Positions 2,291 through 6,462 of a stretch of DNA of 64,000 bases are shown in pieces. Within the stretch, counting starts at the first letter, position 1, and the number at the start of each line of letters is the position of its first letter. Both the position numbers and the translations under genes were made by a program. The notes under the pieces are model-generated. The model ran no database searches. It saw nothing but the letters and a program-made list of their open reading frames with translations, and had not been told where the DNA came from. Source of the stretch: Sediminispirochaeta smaragdinae DSM 11293 (GTDB lineage Bacteria; Spirochaetota; Spirochaetia; DSM-16054; Sediminispirochaetaceae); the NCBI RefSeq assembly GCF_000143985.1, contig NC_014364.1, positions 1,922,001 to 1,986,000 of the forward strand. Reading direction: 5' to 3'.

Positions 2291-3733
2291 TCAATACCAG
2301 TCATGTTTTTCGTTGCGGTCAAGCCCGTTGATTTTTGCCATTTCCTCATCGGTCAATTCAAAGTCAAATATGTCCAGGTTTTCCCTGATGTGGGCCGGAT
2401 TGCTTGACCCCGGTATGACAACGACGCCTTTTTGCAGGTTCCACCGGAGAATGACCTGGGCGGAGGATTTTCCGTGGGCCTGTGCGATAGCGGATATGAT
2501 TTCGTTCTGTAACAGTGGGGCGGTATGTCCTCGTCCGCCCAGGGGATACCAGCCTTCCATAACGATGCCTTTCCCCTGAATATAGGGAATCACATCATTT
2601 TCCTGATAGAAGGGATGTATTTCATTTTGGACCACCGCCGGCATGATCGTAATTTTCGGGAGAAACGCTTCCAGCTCCTCGACATAGTAATTGGACAGCC
2701 CTATGGAGTGAATTTTGCCATCTTTCACGGCCTTTTCCATGGCCTTGTACGCGTCTACATCATGAGCACCGGGATGATGAAGCAGCATCAGATCTATATA
2801 TTCTACACCAAGCTTTTGGAGCGCCTGTTCAATGGCCTCTCCGGCATGATCATACTGATTCATATATAATTTCGTCGTGATGAAAACTTCTTCTCTGGGA
2901 ACGCCGGAAACCCGGATTCCTTGTCCGACACTTTCTTCGTTGTGGTACATATATGCTGTGTCGATTAAGCGGCCGCCGGCTTTCAGGGATTCGGAAACTG
3001 AGTTTACACATACGTCATCCAGCAGACTATAGGTACCCAGGCCGACAATGGGCATTGTATGGCCGCTGTTTAATAAAACCGTTTTGGTATCAAAATTAAA
3101 GACGCCGATGTCTTGAGCGGTATTCTTATGAATATTCAAGCTGTTAATCCACTCCTTTACCGTCTCCTTTGGCGTTGTTGCGGAAAACCTTTGGCCCGGT
3201 ATCCAGCGTACAGAGCTTGCGCATAGGCTGTGAAGGTTCGTATCGCTGGAACCAATGCCGCTGCTGTGCGAGGTGCAAAACGGAATAATTGTTTTTCCGC
3301 TAAAATCATAGCTTTCCAGAAAGGTGTATATGATTTTCGGACATTGTCCCCACCAAATGGGGTAGCCGAGAAAGAGTATATCATAGTTTTCCATGCCCTC
3401 TTTCGAGCCGGAAATCGAAGGGCGGGCCGACGGGGTGTTTTGCTCCACTGTAGCACGCGATGAGGAGTCCCGGTAGTTTCGGTCCGCCGCGGTATAGGGT
3501 ATCTCCGGCGTTATGTGATAGAGGTTCGCACCTGTTTGCCCGGCAATCCATTCGGCAATCTGCTCTGTCGTTCCTGTGCAGGAAAAATATGCTACCAAAA
3601 TCCTCTCCTCTGCCGGAGTGTTTGTTCCGGCAGAGGTTTTTGCCGAAGCCTCCGATTTTGTCGTATCCTGGCATCCTATAGACAGGAGCGGAATTGCAGC
3701 AAGCGCCAGGATACTCATCACTTTCTTATCCAA
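2291..3733 (-). CDS. Flavodoxin / aldo-keto reductase fusion lipoprotein
   Basis: One unbroken 480-residue frame holds two redox domains. Residues 1-21 form a lipoprotein signal (DKK, hydrophobic stretch, lipobox LSIGC). Residues about 45-190 are a flavodoxin-type FMN domain with the phosphate loop SCTGTTE and the isoalloxazine-loop motif YPIWWGQCP. Residues about 205-480 are an aldo/keto reductase with the tetrad visible as Asp and Tyr in LIDTAYMY, Lys in ITTKLY and His in LLHHPG, and the NADPH-site motif VVIPGSS. The TTG at 3733 is chosen because GGAGGT lies 6 nt upstream and it gives a clean signal peptide; the ATG at 3784 would overlap the upstream dehydrogenase. It follows that gene by 19 bp, so both are one transcript under the MerR operator. 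Export of an NADPH-dependent domain is odd. Confidence 0.85.
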   Translation of the reverse strand: MDKKVMSILALAAIPLLSIGCQDTTKSEASAKTSAGTNTPAEERILVAYFSCTGTTEQIAEWIAGQTGANLYHITPEIPYTAADRNYRDSSSRATVEQNTPSARPSISGSKEGMENYDILFLGYPIWWGQCPKIIYTFLESYDFSGKTIIPFCTSHSSGIGSSDTNLHSLCASSVRWIPGQRFSATTPKETVKEWINSLNIHKNTAQDIGVFNFDTKTVLLNSGHTMPIVGLGTYSLLDDVCVNSVSESLKAGGRLIDTAYMYHNEESVGQGIRVSGVPREEVFITTKLYMNQYDHAGEAIEQALQKLGVEYIDLMLLHHPGAHDVDAYKAMEKAVKDGKIHSIGLSNYYVEELEAFLPKITIMPAVVQNEIHPFYQENDVIPYIQGKGIVMEGWYPLGGRGHTAPLLQNEIISAIAQAHGKSSAQVILRWNLQKGVVVIPGSSNPAHIRENLDIFDFELTDEEMAKINGLDRNEKHDWY

Positions 3734-3752
3734 CGGTGGACCTCCTTTGCGT

Positions 3753-4925
3753 TTATCTGAATGACGTGCGGAATACACCCGCACAATCTTCGTCAGTCAT
3801 TTCGCAGGGGTTGGCAAGGAATAATCCCCCTTGCATGGAACGAGCTCCTTTAGCGAGCGTCATAGACTCGTTCAATGAAAAACCGTAGTCACTCATTTTC
3901 AGGTTGTCAACGCCACACGCTTTCTGCAGCCTCATAAGGGCTGTGATGAAGTCCTCCGGTTTGTCGGCATGTTCGATGCCCATTACTTTTGCCATCTTGA
4001 TAAACTGTGCGTCGCAGGCATGGCGCTCAATGAAAAATTCATAGAATGCTTTTGAGATCATGATCAGTCCCGCTCCATGCGGCAGGTTATGATGATAGGC
4101 ACTCATGGAATGTTCCATGGAATGTGCCGCTGTCGTGCTCGTCAGCTGCATGGTAATGCCGGCCATGGTACTCCCGTACGCCACATGTTCCCGTGCTTCC
4201 ATATCGTCACCGTCCTTTACTGCACGGGGCAGGTATTTCGTGATATTCTCAATCGCTGAAAGCGCAATCGTTTCGCTGAGAATATTGATACCGTTGCTGA
4301 TCATTACCTCGGTATTATGGAAAAGTGCATCAAACCCCTGATATGCTGTGTATGCAGCAGGGACGGTTTTCATCAATTCCGGATCTACGATGGCGAGCAC
4401 CGGGGTTAGGGCCGGATCTCCAAAACCGATTTTCTCCTTTGTCTCAAGATTCGATATGACACCCCAGCAGTTAACTTCCGAGGCTGTCCCCGAAGTGGTT
4501 GTGATGGTAACAATCGGCAGCCCTTTGTTTACAAGTGATTGTCCTTTCCCTGTGCCGCCGAAGACATAATCCCATACGTCACCGGGATTTGTAACCATGG
4601 CAGATATGGCAACCGATGAATCCAGAACAGCGCCGCCCCCAAGAGCCACAATAAAGTCGCAACCCTTTTCTTTGGCGAAAGCCGCTCCTTCCATAATGAC
4701 TTCCCTGAGCGGATTCTCCATAATCTTATTAAAAACAGAGATACTGACACCTGCCTTTTTCAGCTGCTCCATGGTTCGTTCCAGAGAGCCGTTTACCGTT
4801 GTGGATTTTCCATTGGAAGTCAGGAGCATCGCCTTTTTTCCCGGCATTGGTAGCTTGCCTAGTTCATTCAGCTTTCCACTTCCGAAAACAATTCTTGTTG
4901 GATTTGAAAAATCAAAATTAATCAT
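3753..4925 (-). CDS. Iron-containing alcohol dehydrogenase
   Basis: This 390-residue group III dehydrogenase should interconvert alcohols and aldehydes with NAD(P)H and an active-site iron. Visible family features are the N-terminal PTRIVFGSGK strand, the dinucleotide loop GGGAVLDSS, the ligand motif GFDALFH (Asp and His) and the further His ligands in MEHSM and LPHG. The ATG at 4925 is preferred because AAGGAGAA stands 7 nt upstream; the frame could be read back to 5009 but that covers the promoter. It is first in a two-gene operon with the flavodoxin-aldo/keto reductase lipoprotein and is divergent from a MerR regulator, an arrangement known for AdhR-type aldehyde-stress operons. Detoxification of reactive aldehydes or quinones is therefore the likely role, but the substrate is unknown. 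Confidence 0.9.
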   Translation of the reverse strand: MINFDFSNPTRIVFGSGKLNELGKLPMPGKKAMLLTSNGKSTTVNGSLERTMEQLKKAGVSISVFNKIMENPLREVIMEGAAFAKEKGCDFIVALGGGAVLDSSVAISAMVTNPGDVWDYVFGGTGKGQSLVNKGLPIVTITTTSGTASEVNCWGVISNLETKEKIGFGDPALTPVLAIVDPELMKTVPAAYTAYQGFDALFHNTEVMISNGINILSETIALSAIENITKYLPRAVKDGDDMEAREHVAYGSTMAGITMQLTSTTAAHSMEHSMSAYHHNLPHGAGLIMISKAFYEFFIERHACDAQFIKMAKVMGIEHADKPEDFITALMRLQKACGVDNLKMSDYGFSLNESMTLAKGARSMQGGLFLANPCEMTDEDCAGVFRTSFR

Positions 4926-4980
4926 TGTACATTTCTCCTTGTCATATCTCATCGTCCAATCAAACGTCTGGCCATGACGA

Positions 4981-5010
4981 TTGACAGGATAAATTATCGT
5001 ATCGTACAAT
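4981..5010 (+). promoter_or_regulatory. Promoter of the merR-family gene
   Basis: TTGACA (4981-4986), an 18-bp spacer and TACAAT (5005-5010) face the regulator gene at 5082. The -10 box lies next to the -10 of the divergent adh promoter, so the two promoters overlap and one bound dimer could control both. Confidence 0.65.
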
Positions 5011-5042: not shown

Positions 5043-5081
5043 TAGAATTTATGAAAATGCTGTTCAGCTTTTTACGGGGTG

Positions 5082-5543
5082 ATGAGGGTGTATACTATCG
5101 GGCATGTTTCAAAAATGTTTAATATTTCTATTTCAGCTCTTCGTTATTATGATAAGGAAGGCTTGTTCCCAAATATTACACGCGATCCATCGGGTATACG
5201 AAAATTTGATAGTAGCGATATTGATAGTCTGAGGGTAATTGAATATTTAAAGAAAGCGGGAATGCAGCTTAAAGATATTAAGGTGTTTCTTGACTGGTGT
5301 AATCAAGGTAACGCAACGCTTGTTAAGCGGCGGGATATGTTTCTTGATAAGAAGAAGTCCGTTGAGGCTGATATCCTTGCGATGATGAAAGTTTTGGATT
5401 TGATTACATATAAATGCTGGTATTATACCGAAGCCGTGAAAGATAATTCCGAAGAAAGAGTCAAATCTATTGAACCGGAAGATATGCCTGAAGATATAAA
5501 AAAGTCATTTGAAAATTCACATGGCGACATGATATGCGGGTAG
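5082..5543 (+). CDS. MerR-family transcriptional regulator
   Basis: The 153-residue protein starts with the MerR winged helix-turn-helix: YTIGHVSKMFNIS, ALRYYDKEGLF, then a second helix pair around IEYLKKAGMQLKDI. A long dimerisation helix follows (about residues 80-118) and a short C-terminal effector part carrying Cys near LDWCNQ, YKCWYY and MICG. This layout fits AdhR-type regulators that sense carbonyl compounds through cysteine; the sensing Cys is an inference. It is divergent from the iron alcohol dehydrogenase operon, whose 19-bp-spaced promoter contains a matching dyad. A GTG at 5079 directly precedes the chosen ATG and cannot be excluded. It probably also controls itself, because its own promoter overlaps the target promoter. 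Confidence 0.88.
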   Translation: MRVYTIGHVSKMFNISISALRYYDKEGLFPNITRDPSGIRKFDSSDIDSLRVIEYLKKAGMQLKDIKVFLDWCNQGNATLVKRRDMFLDKKKSVEADILAMMKVLDLITYKCWYYTEAVKDNSEERVKSIEPEDMPEDIKKSFENSHGDMICG

Positions 5544-5880: not shown

Positions 5881-6462
5881 TTAGGTTGCTGGGTAGTAGG
5901 GACAGGCTGTTTTCTTACATTCGGCGTTTCGCTGGTGATATGTGCAGCGTATCGGTGTGGTCTGGCCAAGGTCGAGGTCAAAATGTTGTTTCATGAAGGT
6001 GATGCTTGTGCTTACTGCGGTAAAGCAGACGCGCTTGCAGCAGCGGGGGCCGCCGATTTCCGCTATGTTGTATAGGCAGTCGGAGCTTAGGCGGTTTACG
6101 AGTGCCCAGGTGTCAGTCGAATAGGGGCTTGTGCCTGTTGCTACCGAAAGGAACATACCGCTTCCAACGGCCGCACCGCAGGCTCCGTACCAACCGCAGA
6201 ATCCGGCGAGCAGGTTTTTTGCCCGGTCTCCGGCAAGGTTCAGCTCTTCCCTGAGTTTGGCTTTCCCGTCATTTTTCAGCCTGCAATAGGTGGTCAAAAG
6301 GACTGCCGGAACAAGGTAGTGGTGTTCCGGACAGTGCATGGGAAAATCAGGATTTTTCCATATCTTCTCCAAAAGCTGCAGCGGCGATGATGGAGCATCG
6401 TATGACTCCAGACAGGTATCTGTAATATATTGGTACAACTCTTCATTGATTTGGCGGGCCAC
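5881..6462 (-). CDS. Cysteine-rich DUF5714-like protein
   Basis: The 193-residue protein carries cysteines in short motifs: TTYCRLKND, GFCGWYGACGAAVGSG, GGPRCCKRVCF and a C-terminal RCTYHQRNAECKKTACPYY. The Gly-rich WYGACGAAVGSG segment matches my memory of the DUF5714 family, which is uncharacterised but often found near methyltransferases or metal proteins. The density of Cys suggests metal or iron-sulfur binding in the cytoplasm; no signal or membrane segment is seen. The GTG start at 6462 has AAGGAGG upstream. It is divergent from satD, and the 190-bp gap between them holds two palindromes that could serve both genes. No function can be assigned. Confidence 0.75.
   Translation of the reverse strand: MARQINEELYQYITDTCLESYDAPSSPLQLLEKIWKNPDFPMHCPEHHYLVPAVLLTTYCRLKNDGKAKLREELNLAGDRAKNLLAGFCGWYGACGAAVGSGMFLSVATGTSPYSTDTWALVNRLSSDCLYNIAEIGGPRCCKRVCFTAVSTSITFMKQHFDLDLGQTTPIRCTYHQRNAECKKTACPYYPAT

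Follow-up and report, generated by a model that had tools for sequence, protein, structure and literature searches.

Within a 64,000-nucleotide stretch of the Sediminispirochaeta smaragdinae genome (the window), one gene probably encodes an envelope-anchored lipoprotein in which an FMN-binding flavodoxin is fused to an NADH-type carbonyl reductase. The host is a marine spirochaete that is strictly anaerobic and Gram-negative; its lipoprotein would therefore lie on the periplasmic side or at the outer surface. Its genome, a single contig of 4,653,970 bases, has been described under the earlier name Spirochaeta smaragdinae (PMC3035371).

A signal peptide, a flavodoxin and an aldo/keto reductase in one frame

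The gene occupies positions 2291–3733 of the window on the minus strand, and all of its parts given below lie on that strand. It runs through 480 codons with no internal stop from a TTG start at 3733, 7 nt downstream of a Shine-Dalgarno sequence (AGGAGG, 3741–3746). The open frame and profile matches give the order signal, linker, Flavodoxin_4 and aldo/keto reductase (AKR) for the 480-residue product. Its N-terminus consists of MDKKVMSILALAAIPLLSIG followed by Cys21; under a simple rule this is a type II signal peptide (3671–3733) with the lipobox LSIGC and cleavage before the cysteine, and such a lipobox-Cys signal, conserved in the homologues, places the protein among the predicted bacterial lipoproteins. 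The next segment, residues 22–43 (3605–3670), is a linker rich in Ser, Thr and Ala that is mostly disordered in an AlphaFold2 model. Residues 44–198 (3140–3604) match the Flavodoxin_4 profile (PF12682; E = 1.3e-53, 181 bits against a cut-off of 24), carry the FMN phosphate loop SCTGTT and have no insertion between beta1 and alpha1. The AKR domain spans residues 218–475 (2309–3082): the Aldo_ket_red profile matches residues 246–472 (E = 2e-48), the barrel alignment begins at 218, and alignment to YvgN shows the tetrad D258, Y263, K288 and H319 to be intact. With its TIM barrel and Asp-Tyr-Lys-His tetrad, the protein belongs to the AKR superfamily. A first-pass annotation had proposed the lipobox signal, both domains in one frame with no frameshift, and a complete tetrad, and each of these points is borne out.

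The AlphaFold2 model, built on an input alignment of 56 sequences, has a mean pLDDT of 84; both domains are confident, and residues 1–40 fall below 50. How the two domains sit against one another is not defined (pTM 0.63), and their arrangement in the model cannot be interpreted. Foldseek neighbours of the barrel are YvgN, prostaglandin F synthases and 2,5-diketogluconate reductases.

Conservation of the export signal

A search for homologues with the same two-domain order, as the first-pass annotation had advised, recovered 33 fused open reading frames from many genomes, the window gene included. Signals were scored by a coarse rule (basic start, hydrophobic stretch and lipobox). The resulting counts derive from scans by pattern and from a sample of genomes, possibly with a few species counted twice, and are not prevalences: 27 of the 33 fused frames have a lipobox, five carry a signal of another kind, and the remaining one is truncated at the end of its contig, which rules out for the family that homologues start after the lipobox. 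Among split genes, a lipobox is found in 56 of the 61 AKR genes of the first scan, and the flavodoxin genes also carry signals. In one spirochaete genus, matched in 21 genomes, a lipobox-free signal is present in nearly all AKRs. More distant control AKRs, scored identically, have no signal in 42 of 43 cases. Judged from these sequences, the export signal is a conserved feature of the family and not an accident.

Independent fusions elsewhere also rule out that the halves are separate proteins joined by a sequencing frameshift in the window. In some draft genomes the AKR or fused frame is interrupted by stops (L006, L050 and L125), through either decay or assembly error.

Additional modules, and fused and split forms

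Some relatives carry a further module ahead of the flavodoxin, namely SLH in L015 (E = 3e-30) and Ig-like Big_2 in L003 (E = 2e-10). SLH and Ig-like modules act outside cells and so lend the export signal independent support, and the earlier suggestion of a surface reductase module agrees with the relatives that bear them. Several relatives have a cyclophilin-like domain, placed either between the two halves or ahead of the AKR; SLH, Ig-like and cyclophilin-like modules are spread over L015, L003, L036, L040, L055, L021 and L078. A dockerin-like stretch in other relatives has no Pfam match and only weak PDB matches. Literature searches for a flavodoxin with SLH and dockerin returned no match, which is weak evidence given how strongly such searches depend on wording.

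In many Lachnospiraceae the AKR and the flavodoxin are separate lipoprotein genes; an FMN reductase gene lies between them and an acetyltransferase gene precedes them. The AKR tree requires 10 changes between fused and split forms, at least six of which are forced by well-supported branches. That the two domains have been joined or split repeatedly with the signal kept suggests that they work together, and speaks for both activities having their place outside the cytoplasm. Among sampled genomes of one gut Clostridia family, 106 of 299 match a flavodoxin lipoprotein, some of the matches being signal-less.

Cofactor site of the reductase

AKRs of the YvgN and 2,5-diketogluconate reductase (2,5-DKGR) type (PDB 3D3F, 3F7J and 1A80) resemble the window protein in fold, tetrad and sequence (about 40–45% identity). 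These matched enzymes are single-domain proteins that keep Lys and Arg at the positions contacting the NADPH 2'-phosphate, whereas the window protein has a signal, a flavodoxin domain and Gly and His at these positions. Within its cofactor loop, PGSSNPAHIREN (2378–2413), Gly442 and His448 align with K232 and R238 of 2,5-DKGR and replace the Lys and Arg that distinguish NADPH-dependent AKRs of this type. The best PDB match of the C-terminal stretch, free of gaps, is 1M9H, a Corynebacterium 2,5-DKGR A with F22Y, K232G and a changed Arg238, which shares both the Gly and the His. This variant was reportedly engineered to use NADH. The two residues are there by design in 1M9H, whereas in relatives of the window protein they are natural and family-wide; the pattern IPGS....HI.EN and the residues corresponding to Gly442 and His448 are retained in nearly all of them, and the tetrad is kept. 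Because Gly and His take the place of the 2'-phosphate contacts as in 1M9H, the AKR is predicted to prefer NADH over NADPH, and the first-pass label of an NADPH-type enzyme is not supported.

Flavin binding by the flavodoxin domain

The flavodoxin domain aligns over its full length to 3KLB (E = 5e-47), a Flavodoxin_4 protein of Bacteroides fragilis with non-covalently bound FMN (PMC11334425). The alignment shows the FMN phosphate loop to be present, and the window flavodoxin is likewise predicted to bind FMN non-covalently; it differs from 3KLB, a lone domain, in having an export signal and in being fused to an AKR. Extracytosolic Flavodoxin_4 proteins, mainly of Firmicutes, are reported to have an inserted loop for covalent flavin that cytosolic ones lack (PMC11334425). 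The window protein has in common with these ApbE-flavinylated proteins that it is a putatively extracytosolic Flavodoxin_4, but their flavinylation-motif insertion between beta1 and alpha1 is absent at that place from its family. The motif D..[ST][GS]A[ST] does not occur in the window protein, which speaks against covalent flavinylation of its flavodoxin, and the relatives examined have an LVAYFSCTGTT-type loop with no insertion. The family would thus be an exception to the covalent-flavin pattern of exported Flavodoxin_4 proteins. Literature searches on exported flavodoxin gave a paper on archaeal membrane proteins as the sole match; the flavinylation papers surfaced only under other words.

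In three relatives the pattern D..[ST]GA[ST] occurs in the linker before the flavodoxin (DVNSGAT in L003, DASSGAT in L007 and DAVSGAT in L019), against 0.15 occurrences expected from shuffles; L003 and L007 are close kin.

The host genome encodes an ApbE homologue, and in Treponema such a homologue liberates periplasmic FMN (PMC4767422). Given these two observations, a supply of FMN from envelope flavin traffic is plausible.

Gene neighbourhood and origin

Upstream of the fusion gene, across a 19-nt gap, lies a gene for an iron-containing alcohol dehydrogenase (Fe-ADH; 3753–5009, minus strand), and the two probably form an operon. Divergent from the Fe-ADH gene is that of a MerR-family regulator (5079–5543, plus strand), whose best NCBIfam match, NmlR, is below cut-off. 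Further on, the window encodes a DUF5714 protein (5881–6462) whose match to the double selenoprotein MbdU is weak (84 bits, against a cut-off of 600).

No close copy of the fusion occurs in a congener genome, whose best AKR is 40% and best Fe-ADH 47% identical. The nearest relatives of both window genes stand together in Christensenella. The fused protein of Christensenella intestinihominis (L002) is 73% identical to the window protein, and the Fe-ADH gene upstream of it, in the same orientation, encodes a protein 73.6% identical to that of the window, with an acetyltransferase gene in between. In the AKR phylogeny the window protein and the Christensenella protein are sisters (support 88/94), nested in a clostridial set. 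The simplest reading of these comparisons is that the two-gene unit of fusion and Fe-ADH was acquired from a Clostridia-like donor, apparently of gut type. Since a second genome of the host's class (G284, L087) has a fused copy at 67% identity, there may have been more than one transfer. The base composition gives no sign of transfer (49.0% versus 49.2%, no difference from the window).

A candidate second in-frame start in one clade of relatives

Inspection of the DNA of split genes revealed a second ribosome site and start codon before each domain. At codon 9 before the AKR (n = 59) there are 20 GTG, 15 ATG, 4 TTG and 3 other Val codons; at codon 2 before the flavodoxin (n = 30) there are 14 GTG, 10 ATG and no other Val codons. 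A ribosome site with a start lies within 14 codons in 24 of 59 AKR and 23 of 30 flavodoxin genes, whereas 300 synonymous shuffles give means of 5.5 and 4.2 and maxima of 12 and 9, respectively. With close relatives thinned, the GTG bias has p ~1e-4 for both AKR and flavodoxin, and under the strictest thinning p is 0.07 (AKR) and 0.01 (flavodoxin); because the position was spotted by eye before testing and the sequences are related, these p values are guides only. A wider sample restricts the second start to one Lachnospiraceae subclade: it is found in 3 of 21 fused genes, and most other Lachnospiraceae flavodoxin lipoproteins are devoid of it.

In Salmonella, ribosome profiling has detected protein forms that occur in pairs and differ in predicted location (PMC11005335). 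Functionally, the pattern in the subclade is most simply read as one gene giving an exported and a cytosolic form; it is also possible that the internal start is a relic of a signal placed ahead of an older gene. Candidate dual-location genes with a second start and ribosome site are L020–L081 (split genes) and L114–L121. In L089–L107, from one spirochaete genus, the AKR has a lipobox-free signal, and an ATG behind GAGG follows directly on the predicted cleavage region, near the place of the internal start in the Lachnospiraceae clade. In the window gene the sole candidate is a weak one, the TTG of codon 46 (3596–3598) with AGGAG 6 nt upstream, so a second start does not explain the window protein.

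Discussion

We propose that the window protein would be exported by Sec and then lipid-anchored on Cys21, which would place a non-covalent FMN flavodoxin, a short linker and an NADH-type AKR in the envelope. There, outside the cytoplasm, it would probably act by reducing small reactive carbonyls or related electrophiles, a role in carbonyl detoxification that the AKR type and the neighbouring genes suggest. The fused lipoprotein would act in a unit with the Fe-ADH, beside the MerR regulator, and its FMN might be drawn from the flavin traffic that is known in the envelope of spirochaetes. As to electrons, the least certain part of the proposal, we tentatively favour a route, at rather less than an even chance, in which the AKR would use NAD(H) that occurs or is retained in the envelope and the FMN domain would be a second redox centre. 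Several considerations weigh against this explanation. To our knowledge, NAD(H) is not plentiful outside the cytoplasm, and its supply is the real puzzle of this reading. Because Sec translocates proteins in the unfolded state, both cofactors would need to be bound outside. The Fe-ADH, FMN reductase and acetyltransferase neighbours, moreover, have no signals in the loci that we read.

The absence of signals from the partner genes would fit an ordinary cytosolic enzyme, with a hydrophobic start that stays unprocessed and a protein that works inside, where AKRs generally find their NAD(P)H. We regard this as improbable, because signals are retained in lipobox, lipobox-free, SLH and Ig-like versions of the family and are missing from distant AKRs. 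Somewhat less improbable, though still unlikely, is that each gene gives two products, a full-length lipoprotein and a cytosolic form from an internal ribosome site that does the NADH work. The start-codon bias and the ribosome sites before AKR and flavodoxin exceed synonymous shuffles in split genes, and a spirochaete genus has its ATG after GAGG at a similar place. Against this stand the confinement to one subclade, with few fused genes and few other Lachnospiraceae flavodoxin lipoproteins sharing the feature, the fading of the AKR start-codon bias at the strictest thinning, the possibility that the internal start is a relic, and the window gene itself, which offers just a TTG inside beta-strand 1 that is expected by chance in about 5% of cases.

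An exported barrel fed by the FMN domain, with no free nicotinamide, would account for the missing cofactor supply, and the flavodoxin-AKR pairing does recur; nevertheless the cofactor loop and tetrad stay conserved and we know of no AKR that accepts electrons from a flavin, and we consider this explanation very improbable. The chance that the gene is an artefact of frameshift, chimera formation or mis-assembly is negligible, since nothing was found in its favour and 33 fused frames from many genomes have the same domain order. An envelope-anchored, NADH-type fusion lipoprotein is the explanation that we retain.

Reductases that depend on nicotinamide are generally regarded as intracellular enzymes. 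A conserved, exported, modular family seemingly without intracellular nicotinamide or covalent flavin puts the source of both NADH and FMN in question. Related flavodoxins are common in gut Clostridia, and the answer for the cofactors could therefore be relevant to redox chemistry in the gut. With the second start codon, it becomes possible to test whether the product of a single gene has two locations. A wider proposition, that extracytoplasmic NADH-type AKRs operate beside a non-covalent FMN flavodoxin and have a cytosolic second form in one clade, seems doubtful to us as a whole; if true, it would imply either an extracytoplasmic supply of NAD(H) or a bound nicotinamide that is recharged there.
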